Assembly (NCBI GenBank): GCA_029964075.1
Contig: CM057142.1
Coordinates: 27,406,392-27,470,391 of the forward strand
Source of the DNA: Patiria pectinifera
Taxonomy: Eukaryota > Echinodermata > Asteroidea > Valvatida > Asterinidae
DNA length: 64,000 nt
Direction: 5' to 3'
The notes beneath the pieces were generated by a model that saw only the letters and a list, made by a program, of their open reading frames with translations, was not told where the DNA came from and made no database searches. Below, piece by piece: positions 1,122 to 63,847 of the stretch. Each line of letters opens with the position of its first letter. The first letter of the stretch is position 1. The translations under genes were made by a program, and so were the position numbers.

Positions 1122-1745
1122 CTATTGTTGATGTACCCTAACGTGGCCCGGCCCCCAACGTGGCGCACTTTGATTTTTCGCCTGTATCGCCTAGCTAGAC
1201 CAAAAGTTTTAACAAAGTTCTAAACACTCCCGTTTATAAATCGCGAGTTTATTTACCCGTTACAAAGTTGGGGAAAAAAAATTATTTTGGCGTGAGTTTC
1301 CGATTTGATTTTCAAGTGCAAAGTGAACCCTTTGAAATGCCCCGAAAAATAAGAAAATAATTTTTGACAAACATCTGGCTGGGTATGTACATGTAAGTAC
1401 CGGTAGAGATAATAGGCCTAATGATTTATCAGAATTTATCAAGTTTACAGAAATTGTTATTTTTGTTAATTTGGAATTTTCCGAGATTTATTCAAGTGCG
1501 CCACGTTAGGGAACACTCCGCCAATTTGTGCCCAATTTCTGGACGCCCCCGTTTTTGAATTTCGGATTAAATTTTATGAAACCACAATTGTTCTCGGAGG
1601 TTAAATAGCAAGCATTAATTAATAAGGTAAAAGTACCAGTATTTTACTGCATGAATTTGAGGTTTGTCAACAAAGAGGTTTGGCAACACTACACGAGGAA
1701 AGTTGGGTAAGCTTCGAATTGCGCCATGTTAGGGAACACGACTTT
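1122..1745. mobile_element. TIR element I1
   Basis: Starts near CCCTAACGTGG and ends near CCATGTTAGGG, giving inverted ends. A sister copy (I2) lies at 9430-9993. I1 carries extra six-base blocks at 1390-1419 that I2 lacks. No transposase frame. Confidence 0.75.
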
Positions 1746-2589
1746 AGTTGTCATGCTGATGCTATTGTTTATTTTTCTTCCTGTATGTTATCTGATTGAA
1801 TGTCCCATGGATCTTAATTGATCGGATGTAAGTGTGTAATTTTTTTGGTGTGATAATGAGATCGTGTGTGATTCATAATTCAATAACCCCTAAACATCTG
1901 CACATACATTGTATACTTGTAATAATCCCCTCCCCCCCCTCCCGAAAATGTACAAAGCAAGTCATATAATTTCTCTAAGTTGCAAAAATATTTGTTGCAG
2001 TGTTCTTGAAGTTTTGGTTTTGGAATTCTTTATTTTTAATTTGATTTTGAAAAGAACTTTCTTTTTCAGCTGACGCTGAAGTACCGTACCGGTACATGTA
2101 ATGCACACCTAAATTCCCCAGAAAATGGTCCATTTTATTCACTTGGTTATCATGCTTCTCATTATTTATTCATTAAAAATCCCTTATCTGTCTGCATGAA
2201 AACATTGCCATGATAAAAAAAAAACCAAATGAAAGTCATGTCTGAATGAGTTTAGTTTTTGTTCATATTCATACATTATATTACAAGTTGTTGATGGAAT
2301 TTAACATAGAATTGCCGGTGTTTATGGTAATTTCTGGAAAGTGTGTGCAGTTGCTGTGTATTTGTTTGCCCATTCATGGTTTTACGCAGTGGAACTTGGA
2401 ATAATTCTAGGCATGTACACAAACAGGAAGACAGTAAATTACTGTGTTCAACTCAAATTAATGTTAAAACACAATTTAATTTTAAGTCATGTTTGATTAA
2501 TTAATATCTAGTTGAAGGTTAAGAACTTGTTTGGTGCAAACTCTCATTTATCCGATTTCACTGTAATGTATTTTGTAACTTACCCCATG

Positions 2590-3136
2590 TTAAAGCTATA
2601 GTCCATCATTTGCAGCTATCCGAAAAGTAACTGGCGTAATTATTGTTGAAAAACATACTTGGTTTAAAGATAGTAAGGGGACTAAACTCCCTGTGAAATT
2701 ATTCTTTATGGCATGCTTTCATTTTGAAGAAATCAACAAAAAAGGCCTTTGCAATGGTGCTTCTTAAGACGCACCGTTGGAAATTTCTGTTCGTAGTTCG
2801 TTTTTTATTCAGCGAAGCGCGTGCAGGCGTTGATATGACGCACACGCGCGTGCAGTTGCTATAATTTGTCGAATCGGTGTGCGACATCGCGTAGCTGCAA
2901 TCGGCTCAGTGAGAACGTGTCTCGGACACTGAATTCAGGCCCAATTCAAAACATGATTCAGCAAACTTTTGATTGGAAATCCGAGATCCTAGAATGCTGT
3001 TTTTCTCAAAATATACAGCTGAAGCTTTGCTGAAACTTCTTCGGGTTAGTTGTTCAGCATCCTTTAGATTGTGAGCACTTTTGTTGCTTCAAACAAACAA
3101 AATGCACAAATTACAAATGATGGACTATACCTTTAA
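2590..3136 (+). mobile_element. TTAA-flanked MITE, family B copy 1
   Basis: TTAA at both ends. Inverted ends AAGCTATAGTCCATCATTTG and CAAATGATGGACTATACCTT. About 545 bases, no transposase. Ends and TTAA target suggest a piggyBac-type origin (inference). Confidence 0.85.
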
Positions 3137-3840
3137 CGTACTTGTCGATGCAAGATAGACGCAAGAAACATGTAGGTATCAGTCTGGTTCAGTACATATA
3201 ATCCGTGCACCCAAACAAAACAGTCGCTAAGACATTTGAACTCACCACAGCACCGTTTCGTGGGAAGGGTTATGAGTGAAAATGACCCCACTGTACAAAG
3301 TTTGTAAAAGATACATGTACATGAGGGGCCATGGTAACATTTACAAGGCCTTTTCACGAGATCGTCAAGTCGAATTGAGCTGGGCTGGGGTTGGGGACGG
3401 GGAACTGAGTGAAATCATGATAATTATGTTGTCCACACCAGAGTTTTCCAACTATTGCACATGTACTAACAATCTAGGGACAAGTACATGTAGCAGTTGG
3501 ACATTGGGATATTTTGGACATTGGGACATACATGTAATTACGTGTAATTGTGCATTCCAAGTTAGTGAAACAATTTGACGATCAGCATGTGACTGTTCCA
3601 AATATAGGGTGAAAAAGTCCTATGCATGTTCCTCAAACTACTGGTACACCCTAGCTAGAGTGTGTTGCACGTGCTAATCAATTTTTACATTATTTTTTTT
3701 TCTGTCATCAAGGAAGGTCCAGAAACAAATTTCACTAAATTACTGGTATTAACATTATTGCATGAAACTGTGGAGGGAGGGAATTGCAACCGCCATCCCT
3801 CCTCATAAAGTGTTGGGAAGGGGTGAGATTTGTCAGGATT

Positions 3841-5506: not shown

Positions 5507-8500
5507 GTAAGTTGGCTCACTGACTCACTCAGGGTGGTGTTTTTGGTTAAAACTATTTAGTCCGACACATGAGGAAGGGGGGGGGGGCCGGAGGGTGGCA
5601 ATTTCTGCTAAGCGCAGAAATTTACGAAGCGCAGAAAATATTTGTTTAGCAAAAACAGGTCACTGTCCAAAGTGATCATATGGTTAAAGGTAGAGTAGAT
5701 CATTTACAGCTATCCAAAAAGAAAATTATTGTTAAAAAGCTTATTTGGTTTAAAGATTGTAATGGCAATAAACTCCCTGTGAAATTATTCCTTCTGGCAT
5801 GCTGTCATTTTGAAGAAAACAATAAAAGAAAGTAAAACGTAATTGCCAAAGATGAGTCAAGTGATGCGTTTTTGGAAATTTCCGTTAGTAGTTGGTTTGT
5901 AATTGGGCGAAGCCGTGAATGGGTGCGCGCAAGTGTTGACATGACGTGCACATGCGCACAGTTGATATGATTCCTCGGTTCAGTGCGTAACAGCTGCAAT
6001 CGGCTGAATGAGAACGTGTTCCGGAGACTGATTTCGGGCACTATTCAAAATATGACAAGGCAACTTTTGAATTGAAATCCAGATCCTAGAATATTGTTTT
6101 CTTGGAATACTACAGCATTCACAGAGCGAAAAATTCATCAGGTTAGTTGTTTAAAGGGAATGTACAACATTTGTTTTTGCTGTAATTTTCAGAAATGGAT
6201 GGATTTGGGGGTTAGTATTTTATAGCAAATATTGTTACACTGACGTTTTGGGCTCGTAGATGCTAGAAAAACAATCAAGTTCTTGTAGTCTGGTTCCCTT
6301 ACCCCACTTACGAAGAAACGAAGCAATTTATAGATGTCGGAAAGTTGTAAAGTCAGGAAATCAGTCTAGCTGGCTTGTATACCTGTTCACAGGTGTGTAA
6401 TCGATTGCAAAGAAAATGCGGACTAACTAACTGTGATAAATCGGGAACATTATTTGAAAAAAAAAACCCCAGTTTTTTTCCAACGCTGGTCCGCCGACCA
6501 ACGTTGGAAATTGATACAAAATTACCACTTTTCTTGAAAATGTCAGCACACCAGGAGCCATGATTTTACAAAATGTTTTAAACTGTCATTCACTAACAGT
6601 CCAGTAAGGTATTTTGTGATAATTTGGTAGTTTTGTTTTTTGATGCTTGTAAATGTTCTGTATTCCCTTTAAGTACCTGTGAGCACTTTATTTGCTTAAA
6701 ACAAAACAAATGCACAAATGACAAATGATCTACCCTACCTTATAAATCTATTTACAATACAATACAATACAATATTTTATTTCATCACAATTAAAAGACT
6801 TTAAAAGTGAAATTCTTCTTCCCAATGTGCACATAAAAACAATATACATATATTTAGACACTTAAAAATTTACATAAGTCAAAAACTTCAGGGGAGGGAG
6901 GAGGTGGGATTGACAAAGGGCCATTTTGCACAAAGTGTAGAAATTTGTTAAGCTCAGGAAATAGAGTAATGGACAAAGCGGTCATGTTGCTGGTGACTGA
7001 TTTTGTTGCTCAACGTGTTAACCCTCCTATGCAAACATATATTCCGTGCAGTCTTTTCAAAACCCCCCAAAAAGAATACAACCCAGGAGGTGTTCTCAAA
7101 GTTCGCAAGTCATTTTTTGTCTTATTACTAAATTCTGTACAGTATCTTAATAATAACTGGAATAACAAGTATTTCTCCAACTTTGAAAACACTTTAAGAT
7201 TGCATTTAATGATCATGTACCCATGATAGTGGATACTCTTTCATATTGTGCCCATGTTCACATGCTCTGCTGATGACAACATTCCTTGACCTTATAATTC
7301 TGACCGTATGCCAGACAGAGCACAGCATGAGGTCTCACTGTATACACACACGAGCATGTTGCCATCATTATACCGCAGGCACATGGGGATTTGCTACCTC
7401 TCAAGTTCTTGAGGCACATCTATAAATAACCAGGCGTTAATAATAGATATGAAATAACCCCGCCTCCGAAAGGTTGCACAGTTTGTAGCCCAGTTTGGTC
7501 CATTGAAATTCGTGAGTTTGCTTCAGGGGGTCGTCAAAATGTTGACTCACTGACTAGCACATTTACAGGAACTTTGCCCTTGACACCGTTTACATTGTGG
7601 TTGTCCCATTTTCCATGAGTATGTTTGCAGACGGCTAGACATTCATGTAATCAATGTTAGGATCAGAACGCATACATTGTATATCACGGGATGCATTTTG
7701 TTAATGACTACATGAACATGTACATGCTCATAGTGATATCGCTGCATCGCAACCGATCAGTTTAAAATTCAACTGCAAAAACTTGTCAGAAAAAGTGGCC
7801 ACTCATGGAGAGCAATCCATGTAATCAGTGTCAAAATCCAGAAACTCTAAAATATACTTTAGACCTTCCCCTCCCTTAAAACATCAGGCTCAAATCAGGC
7901 TGACTTAAAGGCTCCTTGCTAACATGTGTCAAGTTCAAAAAGGACCCCAGATGGCTAAATTAATTAAAAAGTCAAGCGATCCACATAAGATATGCCAGTG
8001 TGACTGACAACTTAATGAGACCTCCATGCATGGATTGACTGTCAGTGCAATCAAGCAATTGACATACATGTAGTCTGTCAACCGGGGCATATACACAGTA
8101 TATTTCCCCACTCGACTGACACTTAGTTTAGGTTTCGGCACCCAGCGTGTAATGAAACACCCAAGTGCATACACTGGAGATGAATCATGTCAGCGATATT
8201 TAGTTATCGGATACGCTCAGTCCAAATTGCAAGGGGAATAAGTGGCAGATTTTTTTTCAGGTTAGATTTAGTTTGATTTTCCCACTCCATATTAAACAAT
8301 AGATGTACATTTGAAAAATTAAAGTTTTCAATATTATCTACATGTACCGGTTGGAGTGGGGGATCATCTAGAAATCGAATAGGGCGTGTTTTACACATGT
8401 AGATGACCTCAAATAAATAACGAAAATTGCATATACCCTGTTCTCTTCAAAACATTGATTTTTTTTCCTAACGAACTTTGAATTTGTATGATTTTTGGAA

Positions 8501-11500
8501 GAAAAAACTACTTACTGGTATTTTGAGTGTCTGCAACCTCTGAAAGTGGTTTTCATTTTGTGCACAAATAAACCCAACCTGGGAGAGCTGAATTAATTGT
8601 CTGACAGCCAACGATTCAAATTTTGTGAATGATAATTCAATAACAAAACGTTGGTGGATTTCTTTCGCTCGATGTCTCATTCAAAAGTGAATGATTTTTA
8701 TATTGCTAGGAAAATAGTAATTGAAGAAACCCCAAATCTATAGCACAGGGAATGCATCTTTAATTTCAGATTGAATGCAAGAATATTAATGTTATCAAAC
8801 ATGCATGAATACATAAGACAGTTTACCCATAATTAACAGCACCCAAACTCCAAGCCGTCTTAAACAGAGTGATTAAAACCTCCCAAGCACACATTTATTA
8901 CATTATTCTAATTTTGTTGCAATCTAATTAAGACGCGATTGTCATTCTGAGTATTTAACAAGAAAAATCATGCTTCATAGAATTTTTGCTTTCGGTAAAC
9001 AAAGCCGTAAAATTGCCCCTTGTTAGCTCTCCACTTCGTGATCACTTCATCACACCTTTTATTTTCTCGTAACTGGGGCAATTATTCCAGATAAAGCGTT
9101 TCAAAAGCCGGTAAACGGTAAACAAAGCCGTGAAACTGCCCCTTGTTAGCCTTCCACTTCGTGATCACTTCATCACACCTTTTATTTTCTCATAACTGGG
9201 GCAATTATTCCAGATAAAGCGTTTCAAAAGCCGTGCCACCTTTTTATGTGTCAATTTTGTTTTCAAATAACGACAAGATGATAACCTTCTTTCCATTGTT
9301 GTCTCGCCAGGTCTTAACAGTAGCAGTGGCTAAAGGTCAGCTGTCTCAGTCAGTGCAGTCCCGATTGGCCAGTTGTCGCATCCTGGGCAAGATAGCCACT
9401 CGCTGCGATTCCTTCATGTGAGTACCATATTGTTGATGAACCCTAACGTGGCGCAGCCCCAACGTGGCGCACTTTGATTTTTCGCCTGTAGCGCCTACCT
9501 AGAGCAAAAGTTTTAACTGTTATTTCACAGAAAGTGAAATTTCATCAAGTTCTAAAGACTCCTGTTCGTAAATCGCGAGTTTATTTACCCGTAACAAAGT
9601 TAGAAGAAAATTTTGTTGGGGCGTGATTTTCCGATTTTATTTTCAAGTGCAAAGTGAACCCTTTAAAAATGCCCCGAAAAATGAGAAAAGAATTTTCTGA
9701 CAAACATCTGGCTGGATATGTAAGTAGAGATAATAATTATTTATCAGAATTTATCAAGTTTACAGAAATTCTTAAATGTTAATTTGGAATTTTCCGAGAT
9801 TTATTCAAATGTGCCACGTTAGGGAACACTCCACCAATTTGTGCCCAATTTCCAGACGCCACCGTTTTTGAATTTCGCATTAAATTCTATTTTACTGCAT
9901 GAGTTTGAGGTTTGTCAACAAAGAGGTTTGGCAACACTACACGAGGAAAGTCGGGTAGGCTTCGAAGTGCGCCACGTTAGGGAACACGACTATAGTACAA
10001 CGTTGCAACCGTTTTGAAACCGAAACCCTCCCTACTTCCCCTCCCAAAAAAAAAAAAAAATTGAGAAAAATGTTCTATGAAATCTGTAGTGACCAGAGTT
10101 GCAAATATTCAAGAAATCAAGAAATGTACGTGTAAGTTGATTTCCAACGATCAGTCAATTGACTGAGTTTTGGAATAAAGAGTTACAATGAGGAAAACGT
10201 GTTTCGTGATCAAAACGTTCTGCATGGTTTTTCACTGTTTTCTCGAGAAGTGTAATATCCACTGAGCTGAAACTTCAACAGGTTCGGTTCAGAACACTCT
10301 TCTTTGGAATTTGAGTGACTTGTGTTATTATTGGAAATAACAGCAAATGATCCCATATGCCTTTAAAGAATGGTGTTTTCCCGCCTAAATTGTTGTTAAG
10401 TATACATGCACCGGTGCATGTGCATGTACATGTTCTCTGTTCCCATAGACCTTACTATAAACACACACGCCAATGTGCCCTCTGCATTCAACTGATAAGT
10501 ACTGTTTGTTCGGTTTCATAAGGTCAAGCACATGTTGATAAACCTTGGTGGAGATAACATTCTTGCAAAGACCCTTGTTTTCAACAAAAGAAACACAATG
10601 TGCATTCTTTGGTGATGTGTTATTCACCTTGGTATTTTGTTTACGAAAAAAAAATAGTCTTTCTTGTTTTAGGTGGAACTTGTTGCACACATATGTGTGC
10701 TTTTGTTTTTTGTTAAAGATATCTAAAAAAATTAATGAATATTGCAGTATTGTGGTTGGACACCTATCTTCGTAAACACCGGCAATCGTGGACCCCCTAT
10801 TGTCCCTAATCCGCATTCCTTTAATACAACAGCAACAGCTCTCATTGGTTTGTACACGAATTTCAATCCTGGACGTTCGGTCAATCGTGGACGTATTGTT
10901 TGTGCCCTAACCCTTTTGTCCTAGGTCCACGATTTCCCGTGTTTACAATGTACCATAGAGCAAGGTGGTCATGAATGGGAGCAGATGTGCATTCATGTAC
11001 GGAAAATTGTTGGCGAAAAAAATGTGGTTTTGCTGATTGATGACTACCTCCTAGTTAGGTGACTGGCAAGCATGACTGATTTTGTAAAGATTTGCCTGCA
11101 GGCTACATGTTGCACAACCCCCCTGGTTTTCTGGTATTTATGTATGTGGTTGGGTTATAAAAATATGTATACAGTTATACCTCAGGTTTGTCCTGTGGAA
11201 TCCTTCTATCCAAAGTGCATTGAACCCTTGTGCTTGAGTTCTGGGCCCTATTTCTTGGTCCTGCTTACCGTTACCAAAAAAATCCCTGCTTACTATGGCA
11301 GAAAATTCCGTGCTTACTGTAAGCGTATTTCACGCGTAAGCGAGGAATGTGTGCTTCTGCGCATGCGTGTATATCCCGCAACTAAAGGATTCTGTGCTTA
11401 CGAGTTAGCACAGAATTGTTCTGCTAGCGCGGTTAGCACAAAATTTGTGGTCGTAAGCGCGGAATTCTGTGGTTAGCAGAGCTAAGAAATTGGGCCCTGG

Positions 11501-14500
11501 TCCAGTGTAGAAGCCATGTTTGATTCCTGCTAGTGTGGAACTGGAAGGGGTTCCCATAACCTCCGTGTCGAACCAGCAACACAGACATTTTGGATAGTGT
11601 GAAAGGCCCTTTAGAGGTTGTTAGAGTAACATGTGCAGGCTTACTCAGGTTGGACTCGAACCCAAGACCTCATGCTTACTGCTGCAGATGTCTCACTGAG
11701 AAAATGAATTCACCTGTGTCCTTAAATCAAATTTGTCAACCAAAACAATAGACTCAGCTAGGAATAAATCATTGAACCTTTACATGTAAATGACTACCAT
11801 TCTAATCCTGTACCATGTTTACATGTACGTATCCTCAGATACATTGATCCTCAGATCAGATGCATTGTTTATATTAGTGAGTGAAGTAGGGTGGTGTAAT
11901 GATGCCTTTTACAAAGGTATTACTCACTCACCCTATAAAACACCAAGGCCTCCTTAACCCTAACTCCCTAGGCCTTTTTGCTAGGATGTAGCCTCAATCC
12001 TGCAAAATCCTCCAATTGGCATCGTGGAAAAATATCATAGCCTCAACCCTGCAAATTCCTCCATTATTTCTTGAATATGTTCCGTGGAGGGGTGACCACT
12101 GCCTGAATCCTGCAAAATCCTGCTGCAGTGGCTGTCAATATGTTGAGGCTTGGCCAGTGACATCCTGGAGCAGTACGGAGGATTTCAAGCATAACCCAGG
12201 CCTATATTTATGCATGGCTGAGCAAAAAAACAACACAAGGTCGGGCCCAAGACCTTGACAAAGTGCTTCCTACGAAATCAGTGACGCACTTTTGCCATGT
12301 AACCTCATTCCTCCAAATTCCTCCACTTTGACAAAGAGGATCCAGAGTAGTTTAAAGATTACACTTTTTATAAATCTTTATTTTTGTGATTGAAAATTGC
12401 TTCAATAAATGCCATTGTTCACCCATTTTTTTTACATGTACCCTGAAATCACTGAACCCCTCTTTAAATACTAATTCATGTAATGACAATGTGTACCGGT
12501 ACATACAATTCATGCAGTTTGTTTACACGTGTACATTCAGTCAGAGCACGGAGCTCCATGGTCAGAGACAGTGAGTTGTAAATTACATTGTACATGTTGT
12601 ATACATAGTACAGTGTGTACTGCATAATGTAAACGGTCCAGTGATATTAATACTGATATGACATGTTATGATTAATAGTGTTAGACCTTGTAGGCCTACA
12701 TTGCTGTTTATTTTGTTCAACGCTGTCTTTGAGTGCTTAATTGTCACTCATACATCATGTCCATATTACCGGTACATGTATGTTGGCCAAATCATTTATC
12801 AAGTTCAACTTAACCAATTTATCCTCTACATGTACGTGTATGTACCGGTACATGTCAATGTACCGTACATGTTACACATCAAAATAAAATGATTTTGAAG
12901 CTAATAATATTATACATGTACTTGTGAAGCTGATAAGATTATACTTTGCATGTCATTTCCAGTTACATGTACATGTACATGTGATGGTACTTTACTGTAC
13001 ATGTACATGTACATTTACTGTACATGTACATGTACTTTACTGTACATGTACCGGTACTTTGCAGTTGGTGCTTTTCCCCCACTTGGTCGGAGGCACTCTT
13101 CAAAACAATTCTGTTTTACACTGAGTTGAACATGTACCTAAACATTCGGCTACCAGTATTCATCTTTCTTGCAAAAAATATTTCTCTCTGTTTATTTCCA
13201 TTTTAACCTGAGAAAAAAATACCGGTATACTGTCTATTTCTTTACATTTCTAGGCTATTTCTGTCTATAAGCAACGAGACTTTTGTTTTAAAAAAGACCT
13301 AGGGCCCAAAAAAAAAGCTTTGGTTGCCTTGCCACAAAAAGTGGTGCGGCGACGCGGCTTTTTTTTTTTAACTCTTTTTTTTTTCTCCAAATGTCCGCTC
13401 ATGACTGCAAATGGTGCCTGACTAAAATGAAGTGCAAAATGTATTGGAGCCCAGAGAGGCCACATAAAGCTTATACTCGATCGTAACCCCATCTAAAAAC
13501 ACGTTAAAATTGTGCAGCAGCAGGATTCCAGTCAAACCAGTGAGTTTGGCGGTTTTGAGACATCATCTTACATTGAAAAAAACTTTTTCATTTTGCCGAC
13601 GCGCATGGCTACGGCGACGCGTGCGCAGACCAGAAACCAGAGCCTTTATTTTTTGGCTTAATGTAATCCATGGTTTCCATGTTATAAATATTCCCAACAG
13701 GATCAAGCGAGATATACTGCCCCTGGTCACCTCCTTATGTCAGAATGTGGACTATGAGGTGCGGGCCTGCATGTGCAGACAGTTAGATTTAGTAGCTAGA
13801 GGCTTGGGGTAAGTACATTTCATCTTCCTTCAAAAGAGATTGGTTCCTTGTGTGAAGCATTTTGCTTAATAGTGCTATTGTTACACAAATTCAGACCGAG
13901 TTATGGGGACTTTCTGCTGTCCCACAGCATTTCGGTCCCCACAAATACCTCATACAGACCAGTGTAACTCCCCACAACTACATATGAAACAAGGCTGTGT
14001 TGTTCTACATAACCCCAGAGGACAGACACACAAAGGGAGAACAACAGATCCTTTCAGTCTTTGGGAGTTGGGTCTTTTGTTCAAAACGGTCCTCTGTAGT
14101 AGGTTTGTGTGCTTAATCTATGGGAGAGTGTTACAGGGACTAAGGGAAACACAAAGCAATGTCCTCAGGAATATAGTAAAACAAGAGTGGATAGTTTTTC
14201 AGGGTTAATGCAGTGTGAATGAATATTACACGCCTTACCAGACAATACCAATTGGCTGTGCTACACCAACACATGACTTCACTGCAACCTCATTATCAAG
14301 TGAAAAATATATTTTTTAGGGAAACTTCTCAGGGAAATACCAGGGAAAATTCAGGGAATTTTATCCTCAAAAAGTGCTGGGAACCCTACCAATGATGATT
14401 TAACAGGCATTAGAGTGTTTCTCTTTTCGTTGTTTTGGTTTGTTCTGGCAACTTGCAGGCTTGAGCCCACCAAAAGTGCAATACTTCCAGAGTTGGTCGA

Positions 14501-17500: not shown

Positions 17501-20500
17501 GGACATTAGTCTCTTGCATATAGCCACTTCAATAAATTTATGTTCAGCCAAACTGCATGTTTACATTGCATGTTTTGTCATTAAAAATGTCGCATAATGT
17601 TGAACATACACGTACTTGGCGATGCATGTCTGCAGACTATGAACCCGAGAACGTCTGAAGTTGCTTTGTTTTGGACCCCCCCCCCCAAAAAAAACCATTG
17701 ACTGGCGGGTCCGAAATTCTTGGCCATCGTCAACATTTTCAGACTGTTCATAAATATTCCAAAGAAAATTTAAGACATTTTGGGGTTCATTTGCCATTTT
17801 TATTGCTTTTTAGTATTGGTTATTGCACAATTTGTTCTGTGAAGATTAAAAAAGTATTAAGACTTTCAGGAAGCATAGAGCAAGGAAGTAACCTACCAAA
17901 TTATTACCAAAAAGCTTACGGCACTTGGACTAAAGATTGTACTGTCACTAAACACCCCGTGAAATTATTCTGTCTGGCTTGCTGTCATTGAGAAGAAATC
18001 AAGAAATGTAGGTGATTTTCAGCATTCAGCCAGTTGACTGATCAGGCCCCAAAAAAAAGGCTCCGCGTTGCCGTAGCCATGCGCGTCGGCAAAATGAAAA
18101 AGTTTTTTTTCCAATGAAAGATGATGTCTCAAAACCGCCAAACTCACTGGTTTAACTGGTCCCCTGCTGCAGCACAATTTTAACTTGTTTTTAGATGGGG
18201 TTATGATCGAGAATAAGCTTTTTGTGGCCTCTCTGGTCTCCCATAATATTTGCACTAAGTTTAGTCGGGCACCATTTGCAGTCATCAGCCGACATTTGAA
18301 GCAAAAAAAAAACAGGTAAAAAAAAAAAAAGCTGCGTCGCCGCACCACTTTTTGGGCAAGCTCCATACCAGAAACCGGAGACTTTTTTTTTTGGCCTTAT
18401 GGAATAAAGAGCTTTATTGACAAAATCGTGTTTTGTGATCAAAAGGTTGTTCATGGTTTTTCACTGTTTTCGCAAAAAAAAAGGTGTAATAAGCACTGAG
18501 CTGAAACTTCAAAGTTTTGAACATTCTTCTTTGGATTTTGAGTTGTGTTATTATTGGAAACGAACAAAATGGGTGAAAAGCAAATGATCCTACCGGTACA
18601 TGCCTTTAAACTGTTGATCATGGCCCAGTTTCAACATAATGTATGTACACTGTACTTAGCAAAAATCAGTCACTTGTAATATACAATGCATGACATTTTT
18701 GGCCGGTAATTGGTTAATGCTCAGCAATAATGTTGTGTGTTTGGCAAGTTGGCCCCGTCCCTGTAATGAAAGCTGGTTGCCAGGACAACCAGACGAGATT
18801 GATATCCCTAATCTTTTCGCTAACACATTCACATTGGTGGGAGTGCATTCTTTGGGGGGTTTAATTCACATTGTTTAAAGCTATAGTCCATCATTTGTAA
18901 TTTGTGCATTTTGTTCGTTTGAAGCAACAAAAGAGTTCAAAATCTAATAAAGGATACTAAGCAACTAACCTGATAAAGTTTCAGCTCAGCTTCAGCTGTA
19001 TATTCCGAGAAAAACCAGCATTCTAAGATCTCAATTTCAAATCAAAAGTTACTGAATCATGTTTTGAATTGCCGCTATACGCGACTTCGCGCACTGATCC
19101 GACGAATTATAACAACCGCGCGCGCGTGTGCATCGTTCCAATACTTGCGCGCGCTGCGCTGAATAACAAAACGAACTACTAATTTAAATTTTCCTACAGT
19201 GCTTCTTAAGAATCACCGTTGGAAATGCCTTCTTTCGTTGATTACTTCAAAATGACAGCTTCCCAGAAAGAATAATTTCACAGGGAGTTTAGTTCCCTTA
19301 CTATCTTTCAACTAAGTATGTTTTTCAACAATAATTACGACAGTTACTTTTCGGATGGCTGCAAATGATGGACTATAGCTTTAAATACGAAACCAGACTT
19401 CAACAATTGAAGGATTAAGAGTAGGGCTGGGTTTGAAGTGTGGTGTCGACTTTCGGTTTTGTTGTCGGGGAAAGTATCAAATTTGGAGAATTTTTTTTTT
19501 TAAATACAACTAAAGTGATGTACCTGTAATATGGACTAAGATGAAACTTCAAGGTTTTGAGCATTCTTCTTTGGCTTTTGAGTGGTGTTATTATTGGAAA
19601 GTTATTTTATTTCTCTCTGGTAGTTAAGTTAAACCACAGATTCCTCAAAAGTACCCTAAGCACTGTAGCTTACAAGCCTGAAGAAACCTGTGGAGAGAAG
19701 ACAGTGAGAAGAAGTTACAGTTTTATAGGTGGGAGGAAAAGCCTAGAGGAATATTCTGAGGAAAACCCACGGAATCAGGCAGGGACTGAAAACCCAATCC
19801 ACATATTGGCCCGGGCAGGATTCGAACCCGGGACACAGCGGTGGAAGGCAAGGAAAGTACTTGAAAGCTTGAAAAAAACGCGTCGCCGCATCAATTCCGG
19901 AACTTCGGTCTGACCAGAGACCGACCATTTTTTTTTTGGCCTTAGCGTGCATAATTACAAAGTCACGAGATCTGTCAGCAATTTGGTTTTAATTCTCTCA
20001 TTTTTTTCCCTCCAGAAACGTGTACGCAGACCATTATTCCATTGGTGTGCAAGTTTTGCGAGACTGCCATGCGATGTGAAGACTCCACCTTGCCGGCTGT
20101 AGCCAGACAGTTTGGCCGACTCTGTCACGGCCTATCAGGTGATTAATAGGACAGCCCGATCGTTTTTGCAATTTTTTGTTAAATTTACCGTACATGCATC
20201 GTCATGGTAAAAAAATTTGCAGAAGGATAGCTAGAATTATTTCATACCAGACCTCGAGGTTGCATCTTTGGCACCCACTCTTTGTTTTCAAGCTGGTGTG
20301 TCTCAATTGACATATCGTCGTTTGCGAGTTTCCCACACCCCTTAGACAACCCTATAGAATTTTGTACGTTAAGTTTGTCTCAGATATTGTGTTTTCCTCA
20401 TCCATTTGTATATAATGGGGCAATATTTCACAAGCTGCGTTGACGCGATTCTACCGTGATAGGTAGATACCATAGGCAGATACACCGTAGAAGTGGTAAC

Positions 20501-23500
20501 GCATTGCCCACGGTTGTGTGTCTGTACACAAACCTGGCCTAACATAACATTTGTAATTTGTGCATTTTGTTCATTTGAAGCAACAAAAGTGCTCAATATG
20601 TAAAGAAGGATGCTGAACAACCAATCTGATGAAGTTTCAGCTTAGCTTCAGCTGCATTTTTTGAGAAAAACAACATTCTAGGATCTCAATTTCAAATCAA
20701 AAGTTGCTGAATCATGTTTTGAATTGGGCTTGAATCCAGCGTCCGAGACACATTCTCACAGAGCCGATTGCAGCTACGCGATGTCACGCACTGATCCGAC
20801 GAATTATAGCAACCGCGCGTGTCGTGCCAATGCTTGCGCGCGCTTTGCAGAAAAACAAAACGAACTACTAATTTACATGTAAATTTCCTACGGTGCTTCT
20901 TAAGACGCACCGTTGGAAAGGCCTTCTTTCGTTGATTTCTTCAAAATGACAGCTTGCCAGAAAGAATAATTTCACAGGGAGTTTAGTCCCCTTAGTATGT
21001 TTCAACCAAGAATGTTTTTGAACAATAATTACGCCAGTTACTTTTTGGAAAGCTGCAAATGATGGACTCTGGCTTTAATCGCCAGTGCAAAATCTTATGG
21101 TAAAAGTGGTGGATGAAACATTGCTTCGACACATCACTATTGTAGACAACCCCGTGTGATGTCACACTTCTATGGCGTATTACACCGCGTTCCCACTTGA
21201 AATGGAAAAAGGTGGATCAAGATCCGGCATTTTGGTGTGATCGTTATCTTACCGCAACGAAATCGCAAGACGCGTTCCCACTTATGCTTGATCCACCTTT
21301 TCGTACGGAAATGTCGGGTCCGAAAGGTCACTGAGTTCGGAATTACGCGCGCTCTGTCGGAGTGCCATTGTTGCATGGTTGCAAGCTAGGCCAGGATGGG
21401 TCAGTTTTCAAACAGTACTATCAGAATTCACCGACAAAAATTACGCGAATTCACCAACATAAATCACGGATCCGTAGAGGATCCGTGCGTGCATAAATTA
21501 ACAGGTGAAATCCAACAGATCAGAGCCGCTCATTGTGTGACATCACGGCAGAAACCAATGCATCGATAAGGGATTCCCTGGTTCTGAAGCTTCTCATTAG
21601 TTAGAAACGGTCACATGATGTCTACGACATCATTTTCCAATTTTCTATAATCAATACTTCAGATTTGTCACCTCCGTACGTACCGCGTTATCGGCACTAT
21701 TCTCATCGCATACTCGTAAGCTTTTCCATGATTCTGTGCCAAAGTGAAGTCTTTTGGTGCGTGCGGACTCAGAGTCATTTATGGATGGAAAAATAAGTAA
21801 AATTTCACCAATGGAAAAGGTTTAGTAATGGACGAACACGCAACAAATTAAGGCCTAGTGTAGTTTTAGGATACCACGTGCGCTTTTGCATGCGCGGTGC
21901 TAGCCCGTAGTTCAGCGGTTGTTTATTGTGCATGTTGTATACGCTGGAAATGTTCACATGAGCTACACGCCTGAAAACGTGTTTCTTCGTTCATGAGACC
22001 GCAACATTTTCGCGCCACTCGTGCACCGGGCGGATGTTAACAGGTCAAATTGCCGGATCAGATCCACCTTTTGCGTTCCCATCTGATCGTGATCCGGCAA
22101 TTGCCGGATCTGATCCACCAATTGGGGGATCTGTATCCTGGTCCAGAGGTGGATCAGAAAAGGTGGATCTGATCCTGATCCACCTTATAACGGTTAGCGT
22201 TCCCACTACACACAATTGCCGGATCTGATCCACCAATTGGGGGATCTGATCCGGCAATTTGGCAAAAGGTGGATCAGATCCCCCAATTGGTGGATCAAGT
22301 GGGAACGGGGTCTTACATTCAGCTGCCATGTTTTATAGGTGTTTTGTTATGTTAATTCATTAACAATGAATGTACACCAGGTCTACTCATGCGTGTCCCT
22401 GTTGAACAAAAGAACACACCTCATTAACAATGAATGCACACCAGGTCTACTCATGCGTGTCCCTGTTGAACAAAAGAACACACCTCAAAGATGGCTGCAG
22501 TGCAATCTGTCTATTGTTGAGCCCAATGCTGCAAGACCATAGAGCTATATTAATTTACTAGAGAGCTAACTCCTCTTTCTTGCGCGCGGAGACGCTTTGA
22601 AGCCGTCCTGGGTGCAGACATTTTGAATTCATGTGCGTGTTTGTAGAACATAATGTAATTAGATGGATTGAATTTTGAAAGTGTACTCTACATGCAAGTA
22701 GAACACACGCAAACAACTTAAGTGCGTCATGACAGTTCAAAAAACGTCACAGCAAAAAGCATTTGCAGTGAATACGGGCACGCGTTGCGCTGTTTGCCTA
22801 GAGCAAAATGAAACGCTCATTAGCTGATCGTGCATTTCGGTTTTGGGCGTATCGGCTTCGATGACGCACCGGTATGGAATACAAACGCAGATATGCAAAT
22901 AGCCGTACAAAAGCCGTACAAAATTTCTAGTTCTCCATAGGTTTGTGTACAAACATGGATGCGCCCATCAGGCATTACTTTGTACATCGATTTAGCGCTC
23001 TAGTCATTTAATATACATGTACACGTAGCTCTATGTGCAAGACCCAACATTTCTGTGTCTGCTGTGCGGCACACCAGTAGCGCAAGCCAAATGTAAATTA
23101 ATTTATGTATCATGTCAAGAGGTTTCCGATACCCATTTATCCATTGTTTGTGATAAATTGAGTTGGACCCTGAACTCATCATGCAGAGACACATGTAGCT
23201 TCTCATGTTCGTAGGTGTCAGGATAAGGTGTACAATACACATTATGGCTTCAGGGTGTCAAGGAAACAAATGACTGTTTATTATAAGCATATGAATAAGC
23301 TTACAGTCGAGTCTCGTTAATACAAACTTGTTCGGACTTAGCCAAATTGTTTGTTATATCAGAATTTTGTATTAAGAGGAACATCAATCCCTTTCATTGT
23401 GCACATATATGCACAGTCGGGACCAAGGCCTTATGTTTGTTATAACCAGAATTTTGTATTAACAGAGTTTGTACTAACGAGAGTCGACTGTAAATGGTTT

Positions 23501-41500: not shown

Positions 41501-44500
41501 AGCATTTACCATTGGGGTCTATGGAAGTTTATTTACTGGTCTGCTACCCTAAGCAAATCCAGTGACCACAATTAGGAAGCCATTTCTGAGGTGGTACCAC
41601 ACGCACACTCGAGTTGTACGCACTCACACCAGTTTGTAAACACCGGCAATCGTGGACCCCCTATTGTCCCTAATCCTCATTCCTTTGTTTGTACAAGTTG
41701 GGCATTTCCACACTAATGGGCCAATTAGATAAGTTTATGGATGTTGCATGGAGGGTAAAAGATGAGCTAGTATTTTCTTCAGTTTTTTCCTATACCTTGC
41801 TAAGTTGAAAGTGACTAGGACAAGACAAGACAAAAGATGATACCTTTTTTTGTTTGAGAAAATAACAGGCATCTTTTCTGTGTGATACGTATGTAATGTG
41901 GACAGACGCACTGCTAGGAAAAAGGTAAAAGTAAAGTAAAAGTCTGTCCCGAGCTAATGTGGCTCATCAGGCCGGCGTTTATCTCCGGTTTCAGTAGCAT
42001 GAAACGACTGAGAATATTTCTACTCCCCCTGGATGGGATGCTAGTCCATCGCAGGTTACTCCCCAGCTAATGCCGGTACCCATTTATACTCCTGGGTGGA
42101 GAGGGGCAAGTGGGGGTGAAGTGCCTTGCCCAAGGACACAATATATGACCAGCGGCTGGATTCGAACCCCGGACCCTCTGATCATGAGTCACGAACCCTA
42201 ACCACTAGGCCACACACTCCCCTCCCAAGGGAAAAAGGTGGGAAAAAAGCTAGGAAAAAGGTGCTTACGACAAATTCAGTTTCTAATAGGCACTTCCAGT
42301 GACATTATATTAAGCCATATTACATTGTTATCAAGCAAAAATATAACAGTCTTCACATTGGCTTCAAATTTACGATGTGATAAGAGTTACGTATGAACAG
42401 GGACAGACATTTTGTGACAGATGTCCAGAGTGTTCGTACGTATAAATCCTGATTATAAAATATCAAATAATTCTTCACACTGACTCTGAGTTTTCTAGGT
42501 GTTGACTGATAAGCATTCCTCCAGGGTACATCTTCTTAAATAAGTCAACATCAGGGGATCATTAGACTTTATGCTTACTTTGTGACTTTTATCTAAAATG
42601 TCTGTCCTTTTAAAACAATATCCACTTTTTTTTCTAAAATACAAAACCTGTTATATCATTTGCAGGTGAGGACATTTGTTCGAAGCTTGCAATGTTTACA
42701 GCAAAAATTGAGAGACAAAGATCGCAGTTTTATCATCAAAACTTAAAGGTCTTCTCAAATGTCACACTTTTGGGCCCATTAGTGTGGAATTGCCCACTTT
42801 TTAGCAACAGCTCTCATTGGTTTTGTACACAAATTTCAGCCGTGGACTATCAGTCAATCGTGGACATATTGTTTGTGCCCTAACCCTTTTGTCCTAGGTC
42901 CACGATTGCCAGTGTTAAAATACTCACCCAGACAAGTGTGTAAACTCCTTCAATCCTGGACCCCATATTGTCCCTCTTTTGTTTGTACCTTAACTTTTTA
43001 GGAAGACCTCCCATATGTTTTGTACACGATCGTCAATTGTGGACCTTCGGGAATTGTGGACCCTATTGTCCTCTTTTGTTCAACGTCCCCTATTGAATGC
43101 GTATCAGAATCACTGTAGGGGATGGAGTGCTAAAGACGATTTAGGCTGTTCGCATGATGACGCGTTGTTGGAGTAATACCTTTTGTTTGTGATCGTTTTT
43201 TAATTATTTATATTATTACAGAGGGTATTACCAGTCCAGCTGGCTGCAGCCCGCACGATATGCGTCTTCATGAAGTACAATCGCAAGCTGGAACAGAGGC
43301 AAGATATGTGTGGGAAACTCATTGCAGGTAAGGACAGGACTGTACTGGTTGGAACAGACAAACAAACAGACATCCCCACATACAAACAAGCAACAAACAT
43401 ACCCGTCACCCCTGAGCCCATTTTTGTGGTGCTGCTAAGCACACAAGTTTTTCTAATGAGTTATGACAGAACTTACTCTTTCACAGTAAGCACGACAAAG
43501 TCAATAAAGTTTGCTGAAAATAGTGATGCAACAATGGGATTCTCCATTCACTTTGTATTTGAAAAGAGTTTTGAATAAAGGGTGTATAAAGCTTTTACAA
43601 AGATCTCGGGGCTTTACATTTATTAGTCCTGCACATACAGTATTGCCCATGAAACATTCCTTGGACCATATCAGCTCCTTAAAGGGAAGATACAACATTT
43701 GCAAATATCACAAAACGAAATTATCAAATTATCACGAAATACCTTACTGGATTGTTAGGAATGACAGTCTAAAGCATCCTGTAAAATCGTGGCTCCTGGT
43801 GTGCTGATCTTTTCAAGAAATGAGAAAACTGGCTTTTTTTCAAAAACTGCTCCGAATTTTCATAATTAGTTATTCCGCATTTTCTTTGCAATTGATTACA
43901 CTCATGTGAAGGGGTACAAGTCTGCTAGACTGATTCTCTGACCTTACAATTCCCCAAAGTCTATAATTTGCTCCGTTTCATCTTAAGTGGGGTCAGGGAA
44001 CAAGACTACAAGAACATGATTGGCTCTCTTGGTTTTTCCAGCACCTACAAGCCCAAAACGTGAAAAAGGTCATTTTAACAATATTTGCTATAACAGGCTA
44101 ATCCTCCAAATCCATTTATTTCTGAAAATTGCAGAAAAAGCAAATGTTGTACATTCCCTTTAAGGAGTATACTGTTGTTAAAGCTATAGTCCATCATTTG
44201 CAGCTATCCGAAAAGTAACTGGTGTAATTATTGTTGAAAAACATACTTGGTTGAAAGATAGTAAGGGGACTAAACTCCCTGTGAAATTATTCTTTCTGGC
44301 AAGCTGTCATTTTGAAGTAATCAACGAAAGAAGGCCTTTCCAACGGTGCTTCTTAAGACGCACCGTAGGAAATTTAAATTAGTAGTTCGTTTTGTTATTC
44401 GGCGAAGCGCGCGCAAGCATTGGCACGACGCACATGCACGCGCGGTTGCTATAATTCGTCGGATCAGTGCGCGACATCGCGTAGCTGCAATCGGCTCAGT

Positions 44501-47500
44501 GAGAACGTGTCTCGGACGCTGAATTCAGGCCCAATTCAAAACATGATTCAGCAACTTTTGATTTGAAATTGAGATCCTAGAATGCTGTTTTTCTCAGAAT
44601 ATACAGCTGAAGCTGAGCTGAAACTTCATCAGGTTAGTTGTTCAGCACCCTTCTTTAGATCTTGAGCACTTTTGTTGCTTCAAACGAACAAAATGCACAA
44701 ATTACAAATGATGGACTATATCTTTAACATTCCATTGTTGGTTATCCTACCGTGCTCTCGCTCAGAGTCATATAAGGATGCCCTGCTATTGCCCTTTCAA
44801 CTTAACACCTGGTGCGGTTGTGGAAAAATGCACCAAAAGATATCACAGAACAAAGCCAAAATACAGAAGAACCTCACGTACAGTACATGTACCGGTAGAC
44901 CTGCACGTGTGAATTACAGAGGTCAATATAGGTGAACCACAAGGAAGTCACATGATCACAACGTCAGTTTAGCAGTGGCCATCCGCATGGGACTTTTCAG
45001 TGATGAAACTTAACTGCGGACTGTAAAACTTACAATTGACAGTCGACACTTGATAATTTGGGAATTTTGCCAGCTGTTCGCACTGGAGATAATATGGTTA
45101 AGGCCAAGTTCGCGCAAGGACTATAGTTGACCAATAGTTAACCATAGTTCGACTAACGCTTGCCTGAACTCTGTCTAGTCGACGGTGGTTGACTACGTTA
45201 GTCGACTATTTGGAACCAACCTACTGGGGCTGGTTGCATCGCTGGTAACAAATAGCCGTGCGCATTCATAACGCTAGCAGAGAGCCAGGATCTAGAAGTT
45301 TTGCGATGACATTTTGACCAGCATTTGACTAGAGACGTTCGCACGTTGCTTTTAGTATGCAGGCGTAAGGTACGTTACAAATCAACCACTAGTCGAATAA
45401 TGGTCCTTGCCCGAACTTGGCCTTTGCTGACAACAGTCTCTGTAAAGTTAACAACAGTCTCTGTTAGTTTAACCAAAAAAAGTCCAGTGCGAACACAACT
45501 TTAATGTGTGAAGCATGCACACAAATTTTCACTATGAGTGAGCGTCAGGCAAAGTTGGCAGTGCCTTCATGAGTCCCATTCAGTGGTCCCTCCCAACTTG
45601 CTCTTTGTCACCATAGAGGGAGTATGTATTGGTCACATTTGTTCAGTTTTAGATTCTTTATATCCTTTTGTCCACAGAATGCTGTCATTCCAAGAACCAT
45701 CGCTACAGGAAGCTGTTCATCGATATTTGTCACTTCTCTCTGGAACTTTTCTCCAAGTCCTTCTTCAAGGACAACTTGTACAACTATGTCGTACAACTTG
45801 CACAGGACCCAGTCCCAAATGTCAGGTAACAGGACTTTTTGGAAGTTCGTTGGGAAAAAAGCGGTGTCTTCTCTGAGTGATCCCCATTTGCTTTTTCCCA
45901 AGTTTGCAGTATTTCCAATGTTGCTAACATCGTGACTTTAGGTGTGATCCCTGGCTAAATGGCATTTTGGGGTTTATGGCTTCTGACTAGCGCCCTTTGA
46001 ACAAAGACATTGACAAATTGGGGGACCACCAACATAGGGCTGGTTAGCTCAGTTGGTAGAGCGCTGGAACGCAGGTTCAAATCCCGCAGGTTCAAAACCC
46101 AGAGGTCGCAAGTTCAAACCCCGCTCCAGTAAATTTCTTTGTTCAACTTTAAATTAGTAAACTAAGAGGAATTGATTTCAATGTCCGTATTTGGCATTCC
46201 AAAAAACACTGGTCATTCCAAAAATATAGATCGACCACCAAATTTTGAAAATTCCATGTTCTGTATAATCACCTTGAATATGCCTTGAAATGAATACACC
46301 TGGGTCTCAAGTTCTGAGGGTGTAAATGTGCCGTTTTGGGCCCCCCCAAAAAACTGTTAACAATGGGAACAAAATAATGCTTAAAATTTGTTATGATGGG
46401 AAGAATTTGTTTGTTCACAAATTGTAACTGCTATCATCAGCTCATTTTGTTGGAACAGCGGTTGAATTTTTATTCATTTCCCTTCAATCTTTGTAAAAAG
46501 TCAGTTATTCAATTCATTGGGGGTTGATGGATGCTTGAGCTGTACGTTAAAAGTGTATGTGTCATATTTCTACTGGACATGGTCTTTTTAAATGATTCTC
46601 ATTATTTTAAACTTTCTTTTAATGTTTTGTCTATTTTGTATGCTATATTCATATTTTTAACTTGCTTTCTTAACATCATTTATGTTGCTGTTCGGCAATC
46701 ATTAGGTTCGTCTTCTTTTTTGTTAACTCACTATTTTTTATTTTTGTCTACTTGTTTTGTTTCCTTTTTCCTTAAATTAAATACCCAAATCAAAATTAAC
46801 TAAAATCATCGTTGCATTTCTGTTCTACACTTTTTTGGGGGTCTCATTAGGTTAAAGTTCTGCTCATTACTACCATCGCTCAAGGCCCAGTTCAAGTTAC
46901 CTAAAGACTTGCAGCTATTACAGCAGCTTGAGACGATAGTCAGGCGACTCCTCAGCATGGAGAACGATCAGGATGTAGTGACTGCAGTCAGGAGGGTGGG
47001 TACCATACGTGCATTTATGTGGACACAGAGATTTGTAGAAATCACCGAAGTTGTCTTTTTTTTCTCCTCGGTGGTAATTTTTCTATTCACATTAGAATTA
47101 TTCTGTTTTCGTTTCAGGCTGTGTTTGAGTTGGACAAGATTCAGATGTGTGTTGGTTCGGTAAGTTGTCACATAAGCAGGATAATAGAGCGTGCAAGTTG
47201 ACCTCAAAACCCTGCAAGATTTTGTGATAATACATTGGAACGCCGCTATAACGAACATCGTGGGATCCAAAGAAAGTGTTCGTAATAACGATCGTTCGGT
47301 ATAGCGATTTTGAACCGCTGGTACCCTCTTTTGACCAATAGTGAAGTCACTGAACTGGCATTTCTCACATCCCACCGCCGCACGAGGAGTTGTCACAAAA
47401 CTTTAGCAACGGGTGGTTTTCCCTTTTATTCCTTGGGGAAATAATAGCCATCTATCGCTCTTCAACATTCAAACACGATGTAACCATGGGTGGTTTGATG

Positions 47501-63323: not shown

Positions 63324-63847
63324 CATAGAGCTATATTACATGTAAATTACTAGAGCGCTAACTCATGTACAAAGTGATGCCTGCTGGGCGCATCCATGTT
63401 TGTATATAAACCTGTGGAGAACTGGAAATTTTGTACGCATTTTGTACGTCTATTTGCATATCTGCGTATTCCATACCAGTGCGTCATCGAAGCCGATACG
63501 CCAAAAACCGAAACGCACGATCAGCAAATGAGCGTGTCATTTTGCTCTACGCAAACAGCGCAACACGTGTGCTTATCCACTGCAGCCTTGATTAACCGTA
63601 TTATTATTTTTTTTTACCGTAACACGCGTAAGAAGTTTGCGTACGTTCTACTTGCGCCGGCGTTGCATGATTTAGAGTACACTTCTAAAATTCAATCCAT
63701 CTAGTTTCATTGTGTTCTACAAACACGCACACATTTAGCTGTATGCACCCACATGAGTTCAAAATGTCTGCGCCCAGGACGGCTTCAAAGCGGCTCCACA
63801 CGCAAGAATGAAGAGTTAGCGCTCTAGTAATTTAATATAGCTCTATG
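63324..63847 (+). mobile_element. hAT-like MITE A5
   Basis: Perfect 8-bp target duplication GGTCGGAC (63316-63323 and 63848-63855). The left TIR carries an extra six bases ACATGT-type block. 524 bases. Confidence 0.95.

Follow-up and report, generated by a model that had tools for sequence, protein, structure and literature searches.

Six-base insertions consisting of a four-base palindrome followed by TA recur at TA dinucleotides in the genome of Patiria pectinifera, and this recurrence is supported in repeats that are unrelated to one another. Three cores, CATG, CCGG and GGCC, lead the series, and all three are found in a single copy of a MITE-like repeat within the window (the whole 64-kb stretch of DNA analysed here). 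Taken together, the insertions are likely, if unproven, to be the scars of transposon excision.

Three blocks in one repeat copy and their polarity

The window holds two forward-strand copies of a repeat of ~600 bases, whose ends were placed by eye: I1 (1125..1744), flanked by TA at 1123-1124 and 1745-1746 and delimited after the empty site of genomic copy L046, and its sister I2 (9430..9992). The empty counterpart site of L046 shows that the family duplicates a TA target, and I1 ends in imperfect terminal inverted repeats, T(T/A)GT(T/C)G(A/T)TGT(A/T)CCCTAACGTGGCGC. From its 5' side, the relevant part of I1 reads TATGTA (1384-1389), CATGTA (1390-1395), AGTA (1396-1399), CCGGTA (1400-1405), GAGATAATA (1406-1414), GGCCTA (1415-1420) and ATGATTTATC (1421-1430), so that the first block completes TACATGTA at 1388-1395, the second TACCGGTA at 1398-1405 and the third TAGGCCTA at 1413-1420. 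The corresponding part of I2 reads TATGTA (9717-9722), AGTA, GAGATAATA and ATTATTTATC (to 9745), with the TA sites empty throughout 9717-9745. The initial annotation had reported the three blocks and described them as the sole length differences between the two copies; the observation is confirmed and, over this stretch, the description is borne out, one G/T substitution (ATGATT in I1, ATTATT in I2) lying beside the blocks. Its rendering of the I1 string was correct in sequence, but the end it assigned, 1422, falls before the end of the quoted string.

The polarity of the difference was read from an alignment of 41 rows, comprising I1, I2 and 39 genomic matches (L009-L047), within one assembly of 613.5 Mb. 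The matches come from a genome search in which 40 of 1134 candidate copies were scored, the 40th being I1 itself. No block is present at any of the three sites in 33 of the 41 rows, and the remaining 8 carry at least one at the first site: CATGTA in I1, L009, L013, L014, L020 and L023, CCGGTA in L018, and both in L024. Blocks at the second and third sites are found in I1 only, although some rows have other small insertions there. All three blocks are thus gains in I1, CCGGTA and GGCCTA being derived according to the copy alignment and CATGTA being derived at a site struck in several lineages. The carriers are scattered on the tree, which upholds the earlier claim that the blocks were inserted and refutes the opposite polarity, in which they would be ancestral and lost from I2. 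Two carriers, L013 and L014, are duplicates of each other (98.3% identity); in a FastTree tree of the element, computed without branch support, no other two are sisters. The simplest reading of this distribution would be at least seven independent gains at the first TA, exchange between copies being also possible. The consensus contains 50 TAs and yet the first took most of the insertions, which makes it a hot spot. A genome search anchored at this same TA returned seven matches (four CATGTA, one CCGGTACATGTA, one duplication and one AGTACC), but all except one of the seven had been aligned before, so they do not count as independent evidence.

The blocks make up a large part of the small insertions of this family. 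Sixteen single 6-bp insertions were found in the 41 copies, nine of which are blocks (8 of 15 if the L013/L014 pair is counted once), and two 12-bp insertions, in I1 and L024, are each made of two blocks. Blocks also occur elsewhere in the element, with GGCC in L035 and CATG in L040. When a random genomic 6-mer was placed at a random position of the repeat in 2,000,000 simulated trials, a palindrome between two TAs arose in 0.13% of cases and one of the three cores in 0.03%; the suggestion that six-base TA insertions with palindromic cores exceed expectation is therefore sustained by the nine of sixteen observed.

Shorter relatives of the blocks accompany them. Of thirteen 5-bp insertions in the 41 copies, four are TA-GGC/GCC-TA or TA-CCG/CGG-TA, and the remainder are mostly duplications. 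The GGC/GCC form is seen as an insertion in L029, L041 and L045, as well as in L014 and L037 relative to their duplicates, and the CCG/CGG form in L032 and L059. Three pairs of duplicated segments, a weak stand-in for a comparison of individuals, differ in similar ways. L013 and L014 differ in length at four places, one of which is TA-GCC-TA in L014 where L013 has TA; L033 and L037 (96.4%) differ at six, including TA-GGC-TA in L037 against TA and a 5-bp duplication with CATG in L033; and L025 and L026 (99.1%) differ at a single place, a duplication.

Palindromic blocks in sampled DNA and in unrelated repeats

Within the 64-kb window, the complete words exceed a trinucleotide expectation by a wide margin, with TACATGTA seen 54 times against 2.35 expected, TACCGGTA 13 against 0.43 and TAGGCCTA 4 against 0.30. 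A sample of 200 kb, made up of twenty 10-kb stretches (L048-L067) from contigs C1-C3, gave 54 against 4.8, 6 against 1.2 and 20 against 1.1, respectively; TATATATA is also elevated there (16 against 4.0), presumably as a simple repeat. Rough, straight extrapolation from the 200 kb to the genome gives an excess of ~150,000 TACATGTA, ~58,000 TAGGCCTA and ~15,000 TACCGGTA. All cores of the form TA-(3-11 bases)-TA without an inner TA were then ranked over 264 kb, counting distinct flanks only. The leading cores are CATG (61 against 10.9 expected), GGCC (22 against 1.6) and CCGG (17 against 1.6), and the fourth four-base core is CGAG (TACGAGTA/TACTCGTA), at 9 against 2.8. Among the 12 XX.X'X' types tested, CA, CC and GG are clearly elevated. 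Elevated counts were also found for variants one base shorter (CCG/CGG, 28 against 14.5; GGC/GCC, 18 against 11.7) and one base longer (CAATG/CATTG, 18 against 4.1); in the ranking by distinct flanks, CAATG/CATTG comes next after the three leading cores, at 16 against 4.8.

The three blocks are not distributed alike. Across L048-L067, TACATGTA ranges from 0 to 15 per 10-kb stretch, and the richest three stretches (L056, L060 and L065) are the sole ones with TACCGGTA; CATG and CCGG blocks thus cluster in the same few stretches, and GGCC blocks are spread more evenly. In runs, exact adjacent pairs number 14 for CATG-CATG, 5 for CATG/CCGG and 0 for CATG-GGCC. The company that CATG and CCGG keep in runs and stretches, and GGCC does not, hints at two sources. 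Examples in the window are the mixed run TA-CCG-TA-CCGG-TA-CATG-TA at 2082..2100 and a cluster of adjacent and mixed runs (TACCGGTACATGTA, TACATGTACATGTA, TACATGTACCGGTA) at 12767..13056.

The flanks are shared. Outside runs, (C/T)A(C/T) is found outward on both sides of 8 of 68 CATG, 1 of 10 CCGG and 4 of 22 GGCC blocks, compared with 230 of 16,055 for all TAs; in these small numbers, a palindromic target preference, ATR-TA-YAT, is common to all three. A palindromic, AT-rich preference around TA is typical of transposase targets. A supposed difference between the GGCC flanks and those of CATG and CCGG was dropped: the counts behind it had included runs, and without runs the three look similar.

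Insertion of the same blocks was traced in repeats outside the I1/I2 family. In the window, TACATGTA at 20874..20881 lies in an unrelated repeat copy whose sisters near 44377 and 58857 (minus strand) have TA, and TACATGTA at 63337..63344 lies in a third repeat family (TTA^AATTACTAGAGCGC), of which the sister near 29325 has TTAAATTA. A whole-genome search anchored at one TA of an unrelated, TTAA-flanked MITE-like family recovered six insertions of 1-31 bases, with GGCCTA, CCGGTA and CATGTA represented once each, the others being a two-base CA and two local duplications. At a non-TA control position of the same family (one control site), none of four insertions was a block. Indels at TA being no commoner than elsewhere had been named as a finding that would tell against the blocks; their share, three of six at one TA and none of four at one non-TA site, points the other way. 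At a TA of another family searched in this way (up to one mismatch allowed), eight insertions comprised one CATGTA, one CAATGTA, one complex ACTAG-CATG-ACTAG and five others. Over 264 kb with the I1/I2 family excluded, seven of 41 six-base length differences are blocks (six CATG, one CCGG), and two more are TA-x-TA with other cores. The same 264 kb yielded no palindromic TA-x-TA among length differences of 4, 8 and 10 bases (69, 27 and 14 sites, 110 in all); differences of 5, 7 and 9 bases, odd lengths that cannot form an exact palindrome, include two, one and two TA-x-TA. The TTAA-flanked family has inverted repeats AGCTATAGTCCATCATTTG and several copies in the window (2596-3127, 18881-19375 and 44184-44718).

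CATG also occurs between exact 5-bp direct duplications without TA, as an insertion relative to aligned copies. The duplicated words are GTTGG (L033:378-391), CTGAG (L044:563-576), CAAGT (L045:764-777), TCTAG (L056:4840-4853) and, less clearly, ATTGT (L043:997-1010), to which the last of the anchored searches above adds ACTAG (contig C1 of the genome, G000:C1:15253668-15253715); CTGAGCATGCTGAG is present in L062 too. In plain sequence, short cores enclosed by duplications of 3-9 bases show no general excess, and CATG within 5-bp duplications is rare, at 4 against 0.7. An element that makes a 5-bp duplication and ends in CA...TG could have left this second class as its scar; a model confined to TA leaves it unexplained.

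Probable excision scars and competing origins

On balance, each block is probably a scar that was left when a cut-and-paste transposon of the IS630/Tc1/mariner type, with TA as its target, was excised and the break repaired. Such an element would enter at TA and duplicate it; on its departure, both chromosome ends would retain the element's terminal bases, and rejoining would produce TA-XX.X'X'-TA, with CA giving CATG, CC giving CCGG and GG giving GGCC. The palindrome would be perfect each time because both element ends carry identical bases. In an alternative geometry, a four-base self-complementary overhang (CATG, CCGG or GGCC) would be resealed by pairing, with the same main product. A one-base overlap followed by mismatch repair would yield CCG/CGG and GGC/GCC, and one extra retained base would yield CAATG/CATTG. 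We infer both the transposase as the source of the break and the geometry of the ends; a single source may account for CATG and CCGG, and a different one for GGCC. The initial annotation had likewise proposed a footprint with two bases left per end: this form fits CA.TG, CC.GG and GG.CC, but an abundant element to match it was not found in 264 kb. Excision also sits awkwardly with tandem and mixed runs, which need repeated strikes at neighbouring TAs, and with a core that is mostly of exactly four bases.

That constancy of length would suit a different process, in which TA is cut by a nuclease, either the host's own or a selfish one, and an invariable palindromic filler of four bases (CATG, CCGG or GGCC) is put in during repair, a long element never being involved. 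It would also be in keeping with the failure to establish a parent family, with CATG filler inside 5-bp duplications too, and with blocks more numerous than any single TA-flanked element family in the sample. We regard it as unlikely because symmetric ends that retain terminal bases are what transposon ends ordinarily show, the joining of such ends would fit the weaker variants of 3 and 5 bases, and the palindromic flanks are of the type described above for transposases; moreover, we know of no enzyme that adds palindromic fillers of this kind. Microsatellite birth followed by slippage, with (TACATG)n, (TACCGG)n and (TAGGCC)n growing from chance seeds, can draw on the existence of runs of two or three identical units and on CATG flanks that look like further units while runs are included. 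It is nonetheless improbable, as single blocks stand at TAs without a prior unit, three different cores were found at a single TA in one family and at TAs close together in I1, and runs are mixed in core, so that a new unit does not copy the adjacent one as in a hexanucleotide microsatellite; tandem duplication of 6 bp would create a palindromic TA-x-TA at just 16 of 607 repeat positions. The same observations bear out the earlier remark that slippage does not account for three cores at single TAs.

Selection for binding sites has a basis in the literature, in which, as far as the excerpted texts go, TACATGTA is the preferred site of Irx homeodomain proteins (PMC3520976) and, together with TACCGGTA, has been predicted as a regulatory motif in Phytophthora (PMC3520976, PMC3597505). 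Selection, however, creates no six-base insertions within mobile-repeat copies, and the duplicated segments described above differ in 3-base variants. For TAGGCCTA, no regulatory role is known to us, and selection as the origin of the blocks is very improbable. Slighter still is the chance that ancestral blocks were deleted from I2 or that an assembly artefact is involved, in favour of which nothing was found: besides the block-free majority and the scattered carriers, changes of 4-9 bp in the 41 copies comprise 55 insertions against 9 deletions (near-identical copies counted apart), and the same cores are seen in unrelated families.

The excision-scar reading finds partial likenesses in known systems. 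A Minos-type footprint is TA-CGAG-TA or TA-CTCG-TA. It resembles the blocks in being a six-base insertion of four terminal bases plus TA, and the corresponding TACGAGTA/TACTCGTA ranks fourth here, but CGAG is not self-complementary and the three main cores are. Tc1/mariner excision is described in the excerpt of PMC3878927 as leaving 3' overhangs of 2-3 bases and short footprints in which the overhang lies between the target duplications, with C(A/T)GTA as the footprint of Sleeping Beauty; footprints of 0-3 bp for ZB and 0-4 bp for the pogo-type Passer are given in similarly partial texts, and for Tc1 in worm soma +4 is the outcome in 78% (excerpt of PMC13148408). Tc1, Sleeping Beauty, Frog Prince, ZB and Passer are thus alike in a TA duplication that encloses a few terminal bases, but according to these excerpts their scars are mixed and of 0-4 bp, whereas those here are common and mostly a four-base palindrome of three kinds. 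The word taCATGta (TACATGTA) itself is a rare Tc1 footprint in C. elegans, as cited from Eide and Anderson 1988 in the excerpt of PMC3520976. Grass Stowaway MITEs offer another likeness, with historical TA-MITE scars that hold short terminal fragments, several of them independent at one site; the footprints in the excerpt of PMC1925063 are asymmetric and variable (TACTCC...AGTA etc.) and come from one intron, with no word excess over long stretches described there.

Phytophthora presents two of the same palindromes. TACATGTA lies upstream of 12,070 Phytophthora genes, for which the authors considered and then set aside a footprint reading (excerpt of PMC3520976). In P. infestans, TACATGTA (M93, with 4,150 promoter occurrences) and TACCGGTA (M94) are separate high-confidence promoter motifs, interpreted as transcription-factor sites in the excerpt of PMC3597505. 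Among the matches listed in searches for literature mentioning TACATGTA, ACATGTACATGT or pairs of the three palindromes, with few subscription journals covered, there were no such insertions in animal genomes. What is new here is the scale, the uniformity and the trio of cores. The geometry repeated in all three cores suggests that they share an end structure or a route of repair. If the blocks are scars, they would allow past transposition to be followed event by event even where the elements are no longer present, and small insertions in at least one repeat family would owe much to them, as they account there for 8 of 15 independent six-base events. They also counsel caution, in that palindromic 8-mers enriched in promoters, as in Phytophthora, could stem from mutation and not from selection for binding. 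A bolder extension, which we hold to be possible although rather unlikely, is that mobile elements of a kind not yet described (or a process driven by a nuclease) target TA and have self-complementary ends, so that each departure reseals to a perfect palindrome, that perhaps on the order of 100,000 TACATGTA-type marks were left in this way, and that the same process is perhaps behind both Phytophthora palindromes, which would later be usable as binding sites.

Candidate parents and transposases

Searches of 264 kb for TA-flanked inverted repeats, at two stringencies, and for 10-mers that regularly follow TA found no abundant family with CATG, CCGG or GGCC ends, and TA-flanked inverted-repeat elements ending in CA, CC or GG are few. 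The parents may be few and active, extinct, or of another nature. Elements with GGCCAA ends are present in two copies in L048, in L052 (~6754-7771) and in L060 (~2152-3161); they have three-base TTA/TAA duplications, would leave another word and so misfit the TA blocks, and we take them to be Harbinger-like. The two sides of a further GGCCAA-ended element, at L064:5657-5969, share TA only, which fits the blocks. The CCGGTACCAGG repeat of L007 was rejected; it sits within a longer palindrome. The CAGGGYGAGT family would predict CAGTG/CACTG as the form with one extra base, counted 5 times against 2.9, yet the variant in excess is CAATG/CATTG, at 18 against 4.1.

Transposases of the appropriate type are encoded in the genome, in which 88 PF13358 matches (IS630/Tc1-like transposases) were found, many with open frames. 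Two loci were confirmed by Pfam as IS630/Tc1-like DDE transposase ORFs, one at L075:1004-2095 and one on the minus strand of L076; both were inspected for terminal inverted repeats, and none were found at either. A search of viral contigs for relatives of such a transposase gave one pattern match and none that was confirmed. The relatives named for the L075 transposase are mostly from echinoderms, including a Strongylocentrotus purpuratus protein with 71% identity and others from Diadema, Amphiura, Lytechinus and Patiria; a hagfish (Eptatretus burgeri) protein is 70% identical, and transposons can pass from one species to another.

Two further features were recorded. One repeat copy, L010, carries an insertion of ~380 bases (~668-1047) with inverted ends and an apparent 8-base duplication, TAAATTTT, presumably a MITE of the hAT or P type. 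At 56738-56816 of the window, ARAGORN, run with bacterial settings, predicts a tRNA-Thr with anticodon CGT.
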